Below are positions 14,466 through 20,711 of a stretch of 64,000 nt of DNA, piece after piece (the stretch's first letter is position 1; every line of letters begins with the position of its first letter). The DNA comes from Sphingobacterium hotanense. Its GTDB lineage: Bacteria; Bacteroidota; Bacteroidia; Sphingobacteriales; Sphingobacteriaceae. Location: NCBI RefSeq assembly GCF_008274825.1, contig NZ_CP030848.1, positions 1,488,001-1,552,000 of the forward strand, written 5' to 3'. Both the position numbers and the translations under genes were made by a program. The notes beneath the pieces are model-generated. The model was not told the origin of the DNA. It worked only from the letters and a program-made list of their open reading frames with translations, and did no database searches.

Positions 14466-15498
14466 ATGCGAATTAAGGGTTGAAAATAGGCTTTATGAAA
14501 CAGGCTGTTAATTTACCGAACACATGTACTAATAGTCCTTTGGTAGATCTGACCTTACTTGCGTTTTGTATCTGTGTTTTTTCATTTATCCAATTAAAAA
14601 AGGATTCGATTGGTTGTCTTACCCTAGATACTGCTCTTGAAAACAGATCATTATAAGCACGATCCCTGTTTTTTAAACAATCCGGCTTTCCTTGGGTTTC
14701 CCTTATCGGGGTATACATAATTGATTTCTTTTCTTTATAAAACCACTCGAAGAATGGGGCGTCACGGTATATCTTGTCACCAAAGAACGTCCTACCTGCG
14801 ATGGATGCCCAATTCTCCTTAAATATGTTCAGGTCACTTTCAGATGCCTTGCTTATTACTATGCTTTCCGGACGAGGCAGCTTGGATTTGTTATAGCTGT
14901 TGAGCGCATGAAGTTTTAATCCAAAATACCAAAGCCTCTTCGTTGAGCAGAAGCTTTTATCCGTTATCTCCAGAGCTACCTTTGCTCTTCTAGTCCCACT
15001 GCAGGTTATGATGGGCATAGAGTCCAGTAAGGAAAATTCTTTGGAGCACTCTTCTGGAGCAAAGTCCTCTATAACTGACTGACAGAGAGATCTCAAAACA
15101 TCAAAAAGGCGGTTGATACGGGTGTTGAATGCTACGTACGAAGTTAGCTTGGGAAACCAATCCATCAGATAATCCGAGGCGAATTTATGAATCTGCTTGA
15201 TCCTTAGCCGCTGTTCCTCGTGCACACTGAATAAATAGATGGTCAAAACCTCCTGATCAGTAAAGTCAGGTTTGTTATTGTTTGAAAATCGCTGACAGTA
15301 ATATTGCAGTTCACTGTCATATTTATCACACACATACTGGTATAATTTTATTAATTTTAGAGCCTTGGCCTGATTGATCATGTTGTTTTATAATGCTTAA
15401 GGAACATTATAAATATACTGATAATCAGGCTTTTATACAAGTTTTCGACCCTCTTTTTAAGAAGATTTTTCCAATATATTTCAACCCTTAATTCGCAT
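14466..15498 (-). mobile_element. IS982-family insertion sequence, copy 2
   Basis: The element is 1033 bp, the same length as copy 1, in opposite orientation, with the same terminal inverted repeats beginning ATGCGAATTAAGGG. TACTA flanks it at 14461-14465 and 15499-15503. As at copy 1, the left flank reads AGGTCTAAYTACTAAGTAC, so both copies sit in the same dispersed heptad repeat. Confidence 0.88.
14473..15381 (-). CDS. IS982-family transposase
   Basis: An intact 302-residue DDE transposase, with candidate catalytic residues D120, D202 and E259. It differs from the other copy only by I104, K114, K167 and R253. Both genes therefore look functional and recently duplicated. The flanking 11.6 kb lies between inverted copies, so homologous recombination between them could invert that segment. 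Confidence 0.93.
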   Translation of the reverse strand: MINQAKALKLIKLYQYVCDKYDSELQYYCQRFSNNNKPDFTDQEVLTIYLFSVHEEQRLRIKQIHKFASDYLMDWFPKLTSYVAFNTRINRLFDVLRSLCQSVIEDFAPEECSKEFSLLDSMPIITCSGTRRAKVALEITDKSFCSTKRLWYFGLKLHALNSYNKSKLPRPESIVISKASESDLNIFKENWASIAGRTFFGDKIYRDAPFFEWFYKEKKSIMYTPIRETQGKPDCLKNRDRAYNDLFSRAVSRVRQPIESFFNWINEKTQIQNASKVRSTKGLLVHVFGKLTACFIKPIFNP

Positions 15499-15509
15499 TA
15501 CTAACTACT

Positions 15510-15551
15510 ATAAAATAAAAAGAGATGCCTCGGCATCTCTTTTTATTTTAT
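15510..15551. terminator. Bidirectional terminator between IS copy 2 and the DUF4342 gene
   Basis: A perfect 20-bp stem (15510-15529 with 15532-15551) encloses the core AGAGATGCC-TC-GGCATCTCT and is flanked by A-rich and T-rich tracts, so it can work in both directions. It follows the leftward DUF4342 gene closely. Confidence 0.85.
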
Positions 15552-15859
15552 TAATGGACTTCAATATCTCTAGGGCCATCGTTCTGCTCTGGGGCAGCTT
15601 CTTTTTCAGGTTCTGTAGGCTTCTCCGAACGCTCTACTGTGATTTTACACTCCGTTAGTAATGCTGCTAGTGCACCAACGGCTGCGAATATGGGTGCTAA
15701 TACGACACCGATAACACCTAGGGTCACAGGGAAGCTCATGATCTCTTTTCCTGATTTGTCTGAAATGCTGATCTTTGTAACATTACCTTCAGCAATTAAT
15801 TCCTTTACTCTTTTTAATAAGTTCTCACCTGTAATAGTGAATGTTTCTTTGATTGACAT
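15551..15859 (-). CDS. DUF4342 domain protein
   Basis: The 102-residue protein matches the DUF4342 pattern: an N-terminal helix and strand (GENLLKRVKELIAEGNVTKISISD), then KEIMSFPVTLGVIGVVLAPIFAAVGALAALL, a hydrophobic segment at about 48-68, and a charged tail rich in Glu and Pro. The function of the family is unknown; the hydrophobic stretch suggests a membrane-associated protein. A TACTTTTG -7 box (15915-15922, leftward) lies about 55 bases upstream. The stop codon falls at the edge of the bidirectional terminator. Confidence 0.8.
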   Translation of the reverse strand: MSIKETFTITGENLLKRVKELIAEGNVTKISISDKSGKEIMSFPVTLGVIGVVLAPIFAAVGALAALLTECKITVERSEKPTEPEKEAAPEQNDGPRDIEVH

Positions 15860-16012: not shown

Positions 16013-16798
16013 CTAATGCAACTCTTGGTAGAGGATCCATATTGCCATGAACAGTACAAAATAGCCAAAGAAAGGTTTTAATTTTGCAGCATCCGCTTTT
16101 TGGCTTATCCAGCTGCCGAGGAGCATACCAGCGAGTGCGATTGCTGTGATTTCGAGCAATAGCGGCCAGTGAATCTCGTCGATATTTGTGCTGCTGATGA
16201 AACCAAATAAGGAGTTCAATGCGATAATCAATAAGGAAGAACCAATAGCGGTCTTTAGTGACATTTTATTGAAAATAATCAGTGCAGGGATAATTAGAAA
16301 TCCTCCACCTGCGCCAACTAATCCAACTAAGATCCCAATTAATATTCCCTGAATGATTATTTTTCCAATTTGGTCATTTGCTTGATGAACGTCTGTTGCT
16401 ATCTCCTTCTTCCAGATCATATTTAGTGCAGCGAAGACCATTAGCACTGCGAAAAGCAACATTAAGAGCATATCCTTACTGAGCATCCAACCGTTAATCT
16501 GGATGATATCATTTGGTATTATAGGGTGTATATAACGCCGAGAGACAAATACCCCCAAAATGGACGGAAGTCCGAAGAATATGGAAGTCTTAAAATCCAC
16601 TTGTCTTTTTAAGGTATACGGTACAATACCCGCCAAGCTGCTGATGCCCACGATAAACAGGGAATAAGTCGTCGCTAAAAAGGGATCGATTGCAAATAAG
16701 TAAACCATGACCGGGACAGTTAATATACTACCTCCAGCACCGATTAACCCCAATATCAATCCTATACCTATAGCTGCTATAAATCCTAATATTTCCAT
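16013..16798 (-). CDS. TauE/SafE-family sulfite or organosulfur exporter
   Basis: From the ATG at 16798 the protein has 261 residues and about eight membrane segments arranged as two repeats, each beginning with a glycine-rich helix (GLILGLIGAGGSILTVP and GILVGLVGAGGGFLIIP). This is the TauE/SafE (DUF81) signature. Members export sulfite, sulfoacetate or related anions. I chose this start because the candidate promoter at 16820-16864 lies between it and the upstream in-frame ATG at 16894. AGAAGGA directly abuts the ATG. In Staphylococcus a TauE is encoded with CstB to deal with sulfide and persulfide, and the same pairing occurs here, so sulfite export is the most likely role. Confidence 0.87.
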   Translation of the reverse strand: MEILGFIAAIGIGLILGLIGAGGSILTVPVMVYLFAIDPFLATTYSLFIVGISSLAGIVPYTLKRQVDFKTSIFFGLPSILGVFVSRRYIHPIIPNDIIQINGWMLSKDMLLMLLFAVLMVFAALNMIWKKEIATDVHQANDQIGKIIIQGILIGILVGLVGAGGGFLIIPALIIFNKMSLKTAIGSSLLIIALNSLFGFISSTNIDEIHWPLLLEITAIALAGMLLGSWISQKADAAKLKPFFGYFVLFMAIWILYQELH

Positions 16799-16819
16799 TC
16801 CTTCTATAATTTGATGGTT

Positions 16820-16864
16820 CAAAGGTGACAGTTTCGCTTTGCTATTTTGGTTACCTTTGTTACA
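16820..16864 (-). promoter_or_regulatory. tauE promoter with Crp/Fnr-type operator
   Basis: Read leftward, TGTAAC-AAAG-GTAAC (16864-16850) forms an imperfect dyad centred at 16856.5. CACCTTTG (16827-16820), one mismatch from TAnnTTTG, begins 29.5 bp from that centre. The inferred start near 16813 leaves a 14-base leader. Two other promoters in the cluster have the same geometry. Confidence 0.65.
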
Positions 16865-16924
16865 GAGGGAGATTACTGACCTAGAAATGATCAATTAGGA
16901 ATGGGGTGCGTATGCGCTTGTCGG

Positions 16925-16969
16925 TGTAACTTATGTTACCATTCGTCTGTTATCAGGGCAGTACCTTTG
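16925..16969 (+). promoter_or_regulatory. yeeE-pair promoter with perfect GTAAC-N4-GTTAC operator
   Basis: TGTAAC-TTAT-GTTAC (16925-16939) is a perfect 5-4-5 dyad, also readable as GTA-N8-TAC, centred at 16932.5. TACCTTTG (16962-16969) begins 29.5 bp downstream of the centre. The inferred start near 16976 puts the operator at about -43.5. There is no recognisable -33 element, as expected of an activator-dependent promoter. Confidence 0.7.
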
Positions 16970-16988
16970 TAAAAAAATGAAAGGAAAT

Positions 16989-17537
16989 ATGGAATTAATT
17001 TTAGGACCCTGGCCATGGTATGTGGGTGGAGCGCTTGTTGCGCTAATCATGGTGGCATTAATCTATCTAGGGAAAAGCTTCGGATTCTCATCCAATTTTA
17101 GGAATCTCTGTTCTGCATTGGGCGCTGGAAAGTCCTGCAGTTTTTTTGATTTCGATTGGAAAGCACAGCGTTGGAACCTATTGTTTCTTGTAGGATCTGT
17201 TATTGGAGGTTTTGTTGCGGCGCATTATCTGTCCGACAATCAAGTGCCAGCGATTTCGGAAAGCAGTATTGTACAGTTAAAAGCAATAGGCATTGAATCC
17301 GCCGGAGCAGCGTACTCTCCTTCGGAAATTTTTGAAGTGATGAGTGTAAAGAACATTCTTATTTTAGCGATTGGAGGTCTTTTAATAGGTTTCGGTACAC
17401 GTTACGCAGGCGGCTGTACCTCCGGACACGCAATATCAGGTTTGAGCGATCTGCAATGGCCATCTTTGGTGGCGGTAATCGGATTTTTTATTGGTGGGCT
17501 AATGATGGTTCACGTATTATTCCCCTTAATCTTCTAG
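16989..17537 (+). CDS. YeeE/YedE-family protein, first half (thiosulfate/sulfur uptake type)
   Basis: The 182-residue membrane protein begins MELILGPW at 16989, preceded by the ribosome binding site AAAGGA. The in-frame ATG at 16977 would coincide with the inferred transcription start. About five hydrophobic segments are visible. It carries family cysteines in LCSALGAGKSCSFFDFDW and in GGCTSGHAISGLSDLQWPS, the latter being the hallmark motif of YeeE/YedE proteins. In single-chain members such as E. coli YeeE (TsuA), such cysteines relay thiosulfate across the membrane. Here the protein is split; the second half starts six bases after the stop codon, and the two should form one transporter. 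Confidence 0.88.
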   Translation: MELILGPWPWYVGGALVALIMVALIYLGKSFGFSSNFRNLCSALGAGKSCSFFDFDWKAQRWNLLFLVGSVIGGFVAAHYLSDNQVPAISESSIVQLKAIGIESAGAAYSPSEIFEVMSVKNILILAIGGLLIGFGTRYAGGCTSGHAISGLSDLQWPSLVAVIGFFIGGLMMVHVLFPLIF

Positions 17538-17543
17538 ACTATT

Positions 17544-17957
17544 ATGAGAAAAGTATTATTTATCCTTTTAGGAATATTGTTTGGTGTGGTGATGTATAAA
17601 GCGGAAGCTGCGTCATGGTTTCGGATTTATGAAATGTTCAATTTCCAATCATTTCATATGTATGGATTTATCGGAACGGCACTTGTAGTTGGTGTAATTG
17701 CTGTGCAGCTGATTAAACGCACGCGTGCGAAGGATGTAGACGGTGGTGATATTGTTATTGCCGATAAGGCAAAATCTATTCCTCGCTATCTTATTGGAGG
17801 TATCCTTTTCGGCTTGGGTTGGGCTTTAGTAGGGGCATGCCCTGGTCCGATCTTTGTTTTATTGGGTGCTGGCGTTTATCCGATGTTGATTGTAATCGCA
17901 TTCGCCCTATTGGGTACTTATCTTTATGGTTTGCTGAAACATAAATTGCCTCACTAA
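17544..17957 (+). CDS. YeeE/YedE-family protein, second half
   Basis: The 137-residue membrane protein has about four hydrophobic segments and the second YeeE motif, FGLGWALVGACPGPIFVLLGAG, with one conserved Cys. It begins six bases after the first half and is certainly in the same operon. The pair corresponds to the two halves of a full-length YeeE. Such split pairs sit beside MBL-fold persulfide dioxygenases in many Bacteroidota and proteobacteria, which fits import or handling of thiosulfate or a related sulfane-sulfur compound. The substrate is inferred from the family. Confidence 0.87.
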   Translation: MRKVLFILLGILFGVVMYKAEAASWFRIYEMFNFQSFHMYGFIGTALVVGVIAVQLIKRTRAKDVDGGDIVIADKAKSIPRYLIGGILFGLGWALVGACPGPIFVLLGAGVYPMLIVIAFALLGTYLYGLLKHKLPH

Positions 17958-17969
17958 TCTATCGTTCTG

Positions 17970-18014
17970 TGTAACATTTGTAACTGTCTATGCTGAAATT
18001 AAGCTATAGCTTTG
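17970..18014 (+). promoter_or_regulatory. cstB-like/crp operon promoter with Crp/Fnr-type operator
   Basis: TGTAAC-ATTT-GTAAC (17970-17984), centred at 17977.5, differs at one base from a perfect dyad. TAGCTTTG (18007-18014) fits TAnnTTTG and begins exactly 29.5 bp from the centre. Transcription would start near 18021. The 74-base leader contains an inverted repeat CTATTGTC (18032-18039) / GACAATAG (18055-18062) and a possible 17-codon frame at 18022-18075. Confidence 0.68.
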
Positions 18015-18094: not shown

Positions 18095-19471
18095 ATGTTT
18101 TTTCAACAAGTTTACGACAAGACGCTAGCTCAAGCTAGTTATTTTATAGGCTGCCAAGCAAAAAAAGTTGCGATCGTTATTGATGCACAGCGAGATATCG
18201 ATGTTTATTTGGACATTGCAAAGCAGAACAATTTGGAGATAACTCACATCGCTGAAACGCATATCCACGCTGACTTTCTGGCCGGTTCTCGCGAACTCGC
18301 GGAGGTTACTGGCGCAAAGTTATATCTATCAGATGAAGGCGGCGAGAATTGGCAGTACGAATTTGCACACGAGGGATTAAAAGACGGGGATGTAGTTAAA
18401 GTTGGGAACTTGAGCCTTACCGTGATGCATACACCGGGGCATACTCCGGAGAGCATCAGTTTCATTCTTCGCGATCATCCAGCATCCGATGAACCTGTTA
18501 TGATCTTTACAGGCGACTTTGTTTTTGTTGGCGATATCGGCCGACCTGATTTGCTTGAGGAAGCGGCAGGCTTGATCGGTACGAAGGAAATTGGCGCAGA
18601 ACAGATGTTTCAATCATTGAAGAAGTTTGTGACATTGCCCGATTATGTTCAGGTATGGCCTGGCCATGGCGCAGGTTCTGCCTGTGGGAAAGCCCTAGGA
18701 GCCGTGCCTAGCAGTACAGTTGGGTATGAAAAAATACGTAATTGGGCTTTCCAATTCGGCGACGACTATGAAGGTTTTAAGAACTATCTATTGAGCGATC
18801 AACCGGAGGCTCCAACCTACTTTGCGATGATGAAGAAGCTAAACAAGATCGATAGACCATTGTTAGTGGAAGTGCCGACCCATCCGACCTTGTCTATTGA
18901 GGAAGGTTTGGCGAAAACAGATAGTATTCTAGTCGATACGCGCAATAAGGTCGAGTTTGCCAAAGGACATGTAAAGGATTCTATAAATATTCAAAATAAT
19001 AATTCTCTTGCGAATTGGGCCGGTTGGATGTTGCCTTACGATAAGAAATTGGTTATTGTGGCTGAAGAGGGGCGTCAGGAAGAGATTACGCGAAAGCTGA
19101 TGCGTATTGGAATGGATCATATCCACGGATTTGTGACGGATTTATCCGGTGTGCCTTTGGAGGAAACAAAGCTTGTCGATGCTGATACGGTTGCGGCTTG
19201 GAAAGATAGGGATGATACAGTTCTATTAGATGTTCGAGGTAAAACAGAATTTGAAACGGCTCACATTCCTGGAGCAATTCATAAATTTATTGGTAACTTA
19301 CCGAAGAAACTGCCAACGGAGTATAAAGACAAGAAAATTATTATACAATGTCAATCCGGTGACCGCGCCACAATCGCGACCTCCTTTTTAGAAAGGAACG
19401 GATTTGAAAAAGTTTATAATTATGCAGGCAGTTTCATTGATTGGAAAAACAAAGGAAAAGAAACAACCTAG
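18095..19471 (+). CDS. CstB-like persulfide dioxygenase-rhodanese fusion
   Basis: The 458-residue protein has an N-terminal metallo-beta-lactamase-fold domain of ETHE1 type (about 1-240) and two rhodanese domains (about 270-350 and 365-455). Dioxygenase landmarks are THIHAD (H56, H58), HTPGHTPES (H116), GDFVFVGDIGR (D141) and WPGHG (H191). The first rhodanese has lost its catalytic cysteine (VAEEGRQ at 322-328), while the second keeps CQSGDR with C419. This order of dioxygenase, pseudo-rhodanese and active rhodanese is that of staphylococcal CstB, which turns persulfides into thiosulfate and sulfite. The neighbouring TauE and YeeE fit export and uptake of the products. A crp-type gene follows after ten bases. 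Confidence 0.9.
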   Translation: MFFQQVYDKTLAQASYFIGCQAKKVAIVIDAQRDIDVYLDIAKQNNLEITHIAETHIHADFLAGSRELAEVTGAKLYLSDEGGENWQYEFAHEGLKDGDVVKVGNLSLTVMHTPGHTPESISFILRDHPASDEPVMIFTGDFVFVGDIGRPDLLEEAAGLIGTKEIGAEQMFQSLKKFVTLPDYVQVWPGHGAGSACGKALGAVPSSTVGYEKIRNWAFQFGDDYEGFKNYLLSDQPEAPTYFAMMKKLNKIDRPLLVEVPTHPTLSIEEGLAKTDSILVDTRNKVEFAKGHVKDSINIQNNNSLANWAGWMLPYDKKLVIVAEEGRQEEITRKLMRIGMDHIHGFVTDLSGVPLEETKLVDADTVAAWKDRDDTVLLDVRGKTEFETAHIPGAIHKFIGNLPKKLPTEYKDKKIIIQCQSGDRATIATSFLERNGFEKVYNYAGSFIDWKNKGKETT

Positions 19472-19481
19472 CAAACGCTTT

Positions 19482-20108
19482 ATGAGTTTAATAGCAGACG
19501 CTTATCAAAATATATTAGAACCCGCCTTGATCGAAGAGATTGAGGCGGTTGCTATTATGAAGACTTTCGAAACTGGAGAAGTCATTATCGATATTGGACA
19601 GTATGTGCGCTCCATGCCACTGTTGATTGACGGCGCCATTAAAATTGTGCGTGAAGATTCGAAAGAAGGGGAGATTCTGCTTTATTATTTGGCCAAAGGA
19701 GAGACTTGCACGATGTCGATTGCTTGTTGCGTTGGGACGAAGAAAAGTGAGATCAGAGCACAAGCGGAGATGCATACCTTGGTGGCGATGATCCCCAATC
19801 AATATTTAAATGAATGGCTCGCCAAATACAGCTCCTGGCGGGAATTTATCCTGAGCAGTTATTCTTCCAGAATGAACGAGATGTTGGGCGCTATTGACAA
19901 CTTGGCGTTTTCCAACATGGAAATGCGCATCATGAATTATTTGAAAGAAAAGGTAAAATTGACGGAAAATCCGATTTTGACTTTAACGCATCAGGATATT
20001 GCTTCTGATTTGAATAGCTCTAGGGTCGTGGTCTCTAGGATATTAAAAAAGTTAGAAAACGAAGAACAGATTGTGCTGCTAAGGAACGAAATTAGGGTGT
20101 TAGTTTAG
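19482..20108 (+). CDS. Crp/Fnr-family regulator, likely sulfur-responsive
   Basis: From the ATG at 19482, ten bases after the CstB-like stop codon, the protein has 208 residues: a cyclic-nucleotide-binding-type beta-roll (about 15-110), a dimer helix (about 118-145) and a C-terminal winged helix. The effector region has three cysteines, GETCTMSIACC (C76, C82, C83), where CRP has its cAMP-binding cassette; the CRP Arg-Ser pair is not preserved (K88-S89). The recognition helix reads SSRVVVSRILKK, with Val where CRP and FNR have Glu. From memory, NtcA (RVTVTR) has the same feature and binds GTA-N8-TAC. It probably activates its own operon and the tauE and yeeE promoters. Sensing of persulfide through the cysteines is inference. 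Confidence 0.85.
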   Translation: MSLIADAYQNILEPALIEEIEAVAIMKTFETGEVIIDIGQYVRSMPLLIDGAIKIVREDSKEGEILLYYLAKGETCTMSIACCVGTKKSEIRAQAEMHTLVAMIPNQYLNEWLAKYSSWREFILSSYSSRMNEMLGAIDNLAFSNMEMRIMNYLKEKVKLTENPILTLTHQDIASDLNSSRVVVSRILKKLENEEQIVLLRNEIRVLV

Positions 20109-20126: not shown

Positions 20127-20711
20127 TCAGTTCGTTGAAATCAAGGATATTAGCATGGCATAGAATGAGATATCCTTATTTTTGAATGTTTCTTTAAGCA
20201 ATGAGATTGCTTTAGAGCGCGCAAAGTAAACATTGTTTGCGCTTGTCCCCAATTCTGACGATATCTCGTCAGCATTCTTACCCTCAAAAAAGGACATTTT
20301 GAAAATTTGTGCCTGCTGCTTGGGCAGCTTCTCTATTTCTTTAACGATCAATTCCAGCAACTCAAAGTATATGATCTTAGTCAGCATATCCTTGTCTGGA
20401 TTTTCTAATTCATACAACCACTCTTCTTCATGCTCGAATCGGAGGCGTCCTTGCTTTACGTAATCTAAGCAAGCATTTTTGGTGACTAGATAAAGGAAGG
20501 ACTTAATGGTTTCCGCGCAGCTAAAATTTGATTTTCTTTCCCATAATTTGACATAGGCGTCGGAAACGATTTCCTCGCTAATGAGTTTATCTTTGACCAT
20601 TTTCATCGCAAAGAAACGGAGTGAATGGGCATAACTATCCATGAAGAAACTGAGGGCTGATTCTTTTCCAGCGCGCAAATCAAGTATTTGCTGTTCAAAG
20701 TTCTTATTCAT
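20127..20711 (-). CDS. ECF-type RNA polymerase sigma factor
   Basis: The 194-residue protein has sigma region 2 (about 12-80, including ISEEIVSDAYVKLWERK) and region 4 (about 125-180, LPKQQAQIFKMSFFEGKNADEISSELG). It resembles the Bacteroidota sigma factors that serve SusCD loci together with a FecR anti-sigma factor. The matching fecR lies at the far upstream end of this locus (27109-28299), with susC, susD and a lipoprotein gene between. A terminator hairpin at 20825-20855 separates it from those genes, so it probably has its own promoter. Pairing with that FecR is inferred from proximity. Confidence 0.85.
   Translation of the reverse strand: MNKNFEQQILDLRAGKESALSFFMDSYAHSLRFFAMKMVKDKLISEEIVSDAYVKLWERKSNFSCAETIKSFLYLVTKNACLDYVKQGRLRFEHEEEWLYELENPDKDMLTKIIYFELLELIVKEIEKLPKQQAQIFKMSFFEGKNADEISSELGTSANNVYFARSKAISLLKETFKNKDISFYAMLISLISTN

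Follow-up and report, generated by a model that had tools for sequence, protein, structure and literature searches.

A Crp/Fnr-type protein as the predicted class II activator of sulfur genes, reading operators at a fixed distance from the -7 box, in Sphingobacterium hotanense and other Bacteroidota

In a stretch of 64,000 nucleotides of the Sphingobacterium hotanense genome (NCBI RefSeq assembly GCF_008274825.1, contig NZ_CP030848.1, positions 1,488,001 to 1,552,000; here called the window, whose numbering is used below), three promoters of sulfur genes share a TGTAAC-N4-GTWAC dyad at one exact distance from their -7 boxes. They serve tauE, a yeeE pair, and a presumed operon for a CstB-like persulfide dioxygenase (PDO) and a Crp/Fnr-type regulator of 208 amino acids (P0001; 19482..20108, plus strand). 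It is likely, with a probability that we put near 0.8, that this in-operon protein reads the three dyads and acts as a class II activator from a predicted position of -41.5, with sulfane sulfur as the predicted trigger. A preliminary description of the DNA had proposed one activator for all three transcription units, and this is supported by the recurrent spacing, by co-occurrence and by covariation between operator base 4 and a recognition-helix residue, all drawn from sequence comparison.

The tauE operator (16849..16864, minus strand) holds the dyad TGTAACAAAGGTAAC at 16864-16850, centred on 16856.5; its -7 box CACCTTTG lies at 16820..16827 on the same strand, with first base 16827 and a predicted start at 16815. 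On the plus strand, the yeeE-pair operator (16925..16940; dyad TGTAACTTATGTTAC at 16925-16939, centre 16932.5) is followed by the box TACCTTTG at 16962..16969 (first base 16962, predicted start 16974), and the operator of the persulfide dioxygenase-crp operon (17970..17985; dyad TGTAACATTTGTAAC at 17970-17984, centre 17977.5) by the box TAGCTTTG at 18007..18014 (first base 18007, predicted start 18019). All three have the same 29.5 bp between the dyad centre and the first base of the box. These dyads and their common spacing had been described before, and both direct reading and a pattern search confirmed them. Chance yields a mean of 0.02 matches to TGTAAC-N4-GTWAC per 64 kb, and three or more matches were seen in 0 of 100 shuffles. 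The single-contig genome of 4.49 Mb contains seven matches, of which four (the three window sites and one at 586.7 kb) are accompanied by [T/C]AnnTTTG at this exact spacing and three are not. When the composite of dyad and box was sought genome-wide with up to two mismatches, it returned the same four sites and a weak TGTGAC... match before a FeoA-like open reading frame (ORF; named by eye). The latter, with its two mismatches, was treated as a chance match because the reversed control pattern gave three matches at equal tolerance.

The spacing recurs in relatives. Loci were taken from the best 80 of at least 579 confirmed regulator-homologue candidates, including Sphingobacterium, Flavobacterium, Myroides, Moheibacter, Salegentibacter and others. 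Strict TAnnTTTG boxes were sought within 80 bp of dyads, with two mismatches allowed in the dyad and both strands of every palindrome read; 70 of 137 boxes fell at +29.5, and the next most frequent offset, -13.5, held nine. The nine boxes at -13.5 overlap the left edge of the dyad, perhaps as a second promoter or by chance. With a looser tolerance, one site or more was present in 65 of the 80. A family-wide search of 251 genomes, in which the gap between dyad and box was left free from 8 to 38 (31 allowed gaps), gave 84 matches in 62 genomes, with gap 22 in 50 of them and gap 21, the next, in five. The reversed control gave 58 matches summed over all gaps (some two for each gap), which leaves gap 22 as the only one in excess (P = 3e-52, shared ancestry ignored). 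Thirty of the 84 matches were read locus by locus. Among the 16 with another gap, eight had no downstream ORF, six lay inside an open frame of at least 500 bp and two were neither; among the 14 with gap 22, 13 preceded, as judged by eye, a gene for tauE (1), PDO (1), a rhodanese (1) or a small membrane protein (10), and the downstream gene of the remaining locus (L057) was unclear. In the relatives' sites no position from -31 to -13, the stretch that separates dyad from box, carries more than 0.43 bits, and it is therefore the distance, not the sequence, that is kept. The scan of relatives proposed in the preliminary description thus finds dyad and 29.5-bp spacing conserved at tauE, yeeE and PDO-type genes across Bacteroidota.

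CRP and FNR occupy -41.5 at class II promoters. At mapped starts of Flavobacterium psychrophilum the sigma-A box TAnnTTTG occupies -12 to -5, according to PMC9723704. Counting back 29.5 bp from the first base of the box, the dyad centre is therefore predicted at -41.5, if the F. psychrophilum placement applies here, and this value replaces the -43.5 given earlier, which would need another start. A further statement, that a clear -33 element is lacking, stands only in part: TG at -34/-33 is present at only one of the three window sites, and among 68 unique sites of relatives T at -34 and G at -33 each occur in 63%. The absence of a -33 element was not used as a diagnostic, given how frequent these two bases are in relatives (for F. 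johnsoniae, see PMC7366714). The T/G following the dyad is possibly a remnant of the -33 element or an extended contact.

The genes behind the operator in relatives point to sulfur. Downstream genes were assigned by BLAST for 168 pairs of dyad and box (box with at most one mismatch; 70 strict). A PDO/rhodanese-type gene follows 38 sites, tauE 35, yeeE 29 and the regulator itself 6, or 108 of 168, and the other 60, before other genes or no ORF, are weighed below; the PDO label takes in lone rhodaneses and fusions of coenzyme A (CoA)-disulfide reductase with rhodanese, through their common rhodanese domain. All six pairs directly before the regulator gene have one box mismatch; autoregulation, part of the original proposal, is supported by this comparison. 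Ten target proteins were scanned against Pfam and six (five among those ten) against NCBIfam. They comprise an outer-membrane efflux protein, a peroxiredoxin, a fatty-acid hydroxylase, cytochrome bd, a cytochrome c and a second PDO-rhodanese type, together with, below NCBIfam cut-offs, two flavoproteins resembling sulfide:quinone oxidoreductase (SQR), a YeiH-type transporter and a CoA-disulfide reductase-rhodanese. The fourth genomic site, 0.9 Mb away and with the same 29.5-bp spacing, precedes a gene for a membrane protein of 79 amino acids (L001:1186-1425, minus strand, genome ~586 kb) with the cysteine-containing stretch NTCSSGAC; it gave no Pfam match over the cut-off and no NCBIfam match. 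Look-alikes of this protein, by eye, stand under the same operator at ten loci (L058, L060-L067 and L076). In two genomes (L186 and L188), TGTAAT-N4-GTTAC occurs at the same spacing before a gene that resembles, by eye, cytochrome c biogenesis genes, perhaps as part of another Crp/Fnr regulon.

The regulator belongs to the Crp/Fnr class, with PF00027, PF13545 and PF00325 over their cut-offs; it matches Crp/Fnr families only, and not the ArsR winged-helix fold of BigR and SqrR. Its predicted fold matches CRP structures (mean predicted local distance difference test score 86.8); since the prediction rests on 24 sequences and has a predicted template modelling score of 0.61, the domain arrangement is uncertain. 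The contacts of CRP with cyclic AMP (cAMP) are E72, R82, S83, T127 and S128. Across 24 homologues the equivalent of E72 is Met or Leu in all, that of R82 is Lys in 21 and Arg, Val and Ile in one each, and S83 is kept in all 24; T127 aligns with residue 134 (Met in 19, Leu in 5), and the counterpart of S128 is L135 (at least 90% Leu). A cAMP-responsive CRP was rejected, as pocket residues are missing. FNR senses through a [4Fe-4S] cluster held by an N-terminal cysteine cluster and one more cysteine, and sensing of this type was likewise rejected, the cysteines of the 24 aligned sequences being only at columns 76, 82 and 83.

In the predicted model these three cysteines (codons for Cys76 to Cys83 at 19707..19730, plus strand) lie beside or at the end of a short helix, 77-83, within the part of the protein that aligns with the cAMP phosphate-binding cassette of CRP. 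None of the three varies among the 24 homologues, and 81 of 82 matches have them all; only the genome's own paralogue departs, with C-T-M, so that Cys76 is present in all 82. In wider relatives Cys76 is found in 91 of 91 regions; positions 82/83 are CC in 37 and otherwise GG, CA, AG and others. A three-cysteine sensor was rejected as a universal feature, only Cys76 being kept in all regions examined. Since Cys76 is constant in these regions and 82/83 vary, it is the candidate sensor residue, through which the regulator may act as a thiol sensor of sulfane sulfur. It is less likely, in our judgement, that the regulator responds to oxygen, nitric oxide, redox state or some other ligand rather than to sulfane sulfur. 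In favour of this alternative, the genes behind some dyads encode cytochrome bd, peroxiredoxin or efflux proteins, and Cys82 and Cys83 are not universal; the recurrent targets, however, are sulfide and persulfide genes (PDO, rhodanese, CoA-disulfide reductase, SQR-like, tauE and yeeE), and the regulator lacks the N-terminal cysteines of FNR.

In CRP, Arg180 reads G2, and Arg185 with Glu181 reads the G4:C4 pair of TGTGA (PMC11253593). By alignment the regulator has Arg181 and Val182 at the CRP Arg180 and Glu181 positions (codons R181-V-V-V-S-R186 at 20022..20039, plus strand; V182 aligned with Glu181). Because Glu181 of CRP reads that base pair, operator base 4 was left free in the pattern and compared with residue 182. 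A first set comprised 116 regions (the window stretch, 80 named loci and 35 fetched regions; four without such a regulator). With Val182 (98 regions), base 4 was A 180 times, T 2, G 2 and C 1; with Glu182 (12 regions) it was G 5 times and A once; the single Thr182 region gave G 1 and the single Ala182 region G 2. A second set of 60 further regions, a few of them overlapping the first, gave A 38 and G 3 for Val182 (33 regions) and G 30 and A 10 for Glu182 (27 regions); the opposite half reads GTCAC in eight of the ten A sites of this Glu class, and 3 of its 30 G readings come from a dyad also read as A on the other strand. Counting unique sites in both sets, Val goes with A in 215 of 223 and Glu, Thr or Ala with G in 38 of 49, and one or both half-sites contain the G in 12 of 223 and 47 of 49, respectively. 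At twenty control spacings the mean was at most 3.75 (first set) and 0.75 (second set) per base, residue class and spacing; Fisher p values for the covariation treat related sites as independent. The same pairing is seen within a sister clade of regulators, where TGTAAC accompanies the Val members and TGTGAC those with Thr or Ala, the neighbouring genes being PDO and tauE. This covariation between residue and base supports, as an independent line, the in-operon regulator as the reader of the dyads.

Regulator and operator also tend to occur together. Among 36 genomes of the genus, S. hotanense included, an orthologue (at least 50% identity) was found in 27 and was missing from nine. The composite, with at most one mismatch, was present in 24 of the 27 versus two of the nine (Fisher p 4e-4), and the 59 genomes of the co-occurrence search gave 53 composite matches versus 6 for the reversed control. 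At loci with the regulator, 99 of 119 tauE, yeeE and PDO promoters had at most 3 mismatches in 17 positions, against a mean of 6.8-6.9 for shuffled sequence. In G001, G006 and G028, three genomes that lack the regulator, no promoter scored better than 6 mismatches; yeeE and PDO-type genes remain there. The stricter idea that the dyad is absent from every orthologue-less genome was rejected, as it is true of these three and of one G003 copy, not of all nine. Some orthologue-less genomes with sites carry a sister-clade regulator nearby, and such regulators explain part of these sites. Sister-clade proteins (helix AR[V/T/A]VVSR, Cys76, GG for CC) stand beside tauE and PDO genes with the same geometry at L231, L232, L235 and L236. 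An orthologue from Porphyromonas loveana (L123:9992-10621), with the helix SRVVVSR and the C..CC cysteines, lies beside a gene resembling, by eye, that of peptidylarginine deiminase, and no sulfur gene is evident among the ORFs of that locus.

It is very unlikely that another Crp/Fnr protein of the genome, for instance the paralogue of 33% identity at 1442644-1443240, reads the dyads, with the in-operon regulator merely a target. The genome holds 11 matches to the cyclic nucleotide-binding domain, and elsewhere TGTAAC sites and tauE are also neighbours of sister-clade proteins with the helix ARVVVSR; against this reading, the helix SRVVVSR is found in only one of the 11 matches, the in-operon protein, the 33% paralogue having SREVISR, relatives with Glu at residue 182 mostly pair with TGTGA sites, and sites are present in 65 of the 80 loci to which the in-operon regulator led.

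The regulator and its sites share with class II CRP and FNR of E. coli the Crp/Fnr fold, a TGTnA half-site, a 16-bp dyad and a fixed distance from dyad to promoter element, and the predicted centre equals their class II position. They differ from CRP in that the half-site is TGTAAC instead of TGTGA, with Val for Glu181, in that E72, T127 and S128 are not kept, and in the Bacteroidota -7 type of the promoter. D59, invariant in the 24 sequences, aligns with the acidic activating region 3 of CRP, which is only suggestive of a polymerase contact. Among solved structures the best match is 3dv8, a Crp/Fnr protein of Eubacterium rectale (E 1.8e-21), which has cysteines at the Cys76 and Cys82 positions and none that corresponds to the second one of the CC pair. 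The CstR/CstB system of Staphylococcus resembles the present cluster in pairing an enzyme of metallo-beta-lactamase and rhodanese type, and sulfur transporters, with a thiol sensor; CstR, however, is a CsoR-family repressor, whereas the protein here is of Crp/Fnr type. In the bigR operon of Xylella and Agrobacterium, an ETHE1-type enzyme and a TauE-related exporter are under a cysteine-based winged-helix repressor (PMC5823870). The cargo is thus similar; in that source cysteine-based sulfide sensing is shown for BigR, and here it is predicted. BigR works by repression over the -10 region; for the Crp/Fnr protein, activation from -41.5 is predicted. Among the papers listed by the literature searches, judged by title and the opening of the abstract, none reports a sulfur-sensing Crp/Fnr protein in Bacteroidetes.

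The control of a similar gene set by repression in BigR (PMC5823870) is also what gives some substance to the idea, to which we assign little credence, that the in-operon regulator reads the dyads and represses, or that the promoter start differs. A single exact spacing at unrelated genes, however, fits an activator that touches the polymerase and not a repressor, and the predicted -41.5 coincides with the class II position. That the spacing was inherited without function from one ancestral promoter copied three times is highly implausible: orthologous promoters are related by descent, yet the stretch from dyad to box is near background, the spacers of the three window sites are unalike by eye, and the dyads are absent from the regulator-less G001, G006 and G028 though their yeeE and PDO-type genes remain.

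Several observations weigh against activation of these genes by the in-operon regulator as set out here. Of the 168 sites in relatives, 60 stand before genes of other kinds or before no ORF at all, and for some of them a link to sulfur is not evident (such as clusters with DinB-like or TetR-like proteins, by eye), and 15 of the 80 loci have no site even at loose tolerance. Beside the regulator itself, 20 of 119 promoters have no site within 3 mismatches. Conversely, two of the nine orthologue-less genomes keep a site, and 7 of 41 promoters in these nine lie within 3 mismatches, overlapping loci being counted repeatedly; G031 and G034 have dyads and no sister-clade regulator within the fetched regions. 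Base 4 is A in 11 of 46 sites of the Glu class. Relatives that share these targets have other residue pairs in place of Cys82/83, so that the case for a three-cysteine sensor is weaker, and many sites are inherited copies, so the P values overstate independence.

The genes of the cluster suggest what the response may accomplish. The tauE gene (16013..16798, minus strand) encodes a protein of the TauE/SafE family of sulfite exporters (PF01925). The first yeeE half (PF04143, Sulf_transp; 16977..17537, plus strand) probably starts at 16989, because several relatives start at a Met just before PWPWY; the second (PF20398/PF04143) occupies 17544..17957 on the plus strand. Both halves match Pfam Sulf_transp; against the TsuA-type NCBIfam model NF052577 (cut-off 400 bits), the first reached only 33.4 bits and the second had no match. 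The CstB-like protein (18095..19471, plus strand) combines a metallo-beta-lactamase domain of persulfide dioxygenase type with two rhodanese stretches; the regulator gene starts 10 bp past its stop codon, and for this reason the two presumably form one operon, with the regulator gene second. The regulator is 92% identical to a named Sphingobacterium protein. Next to the cluster lies an ORF for a DDE-type transposase (14473-15381, minus strand), which adjoins a DUF4342 gene (15551-15859), and a gene for a sigma-70 region 2/4 protein resembling extracytoplasmic function sigma factors (20127-20711, minus strand) is convergent with the regulator gene.

In the mechanism proposed, the Crp/Fnr-type protein would bind the three dyads and, from -41.5, activate its own persulfide-dioxygenase operon together with tauE and the yeeE pair. 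At this fixed spacing one subunit would lie next to sigma region 4 and the alpha subunit of RNA polymerase, in replacement of a -33 element. The trigger would be sulfane sulfur, or a related sulfur species that reacts with thiols, acting via Cys76, with Cys82 and Cys83 perhaps helping in this clade. The YeeE pair would then move thiosulfate or sulfur, the CstB-like enzyme would oxidise persulfide to sulfite, TauE would export the sulfite, and the regulator would raise its own level. The predicted outcome is a switching-on of sulfide detoxification.

We lean slightly towards a wider view, in which the sulfide response of Bacteroidota is run by a cAMP-free, cysteine-based Crp/Fnr activator at a rigid -41.5, with its preference for TGTAAC or TGTGAC switched by the residue at the Glu181 position. 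If this is true, a Crp/Fnr activator would fill the role held elsewhere by ArsR- and CsoR-type repressors, and the phylum would gain a concrete regulon for sulfide and persulfide handling, with predicted regulator, operator and start geometry. Residue 182 and operator base 4 would offer a natural case of a recognition code, and the divergent -7 promoters of the phylum appear to have retained the classical class II geometry. Candidate sulfur-response genes, including that of the small membrane protein with its cysteine-rich loop, can be sought by means of a TGTNAC dyad at a fixed distance from TAnnTTTG.
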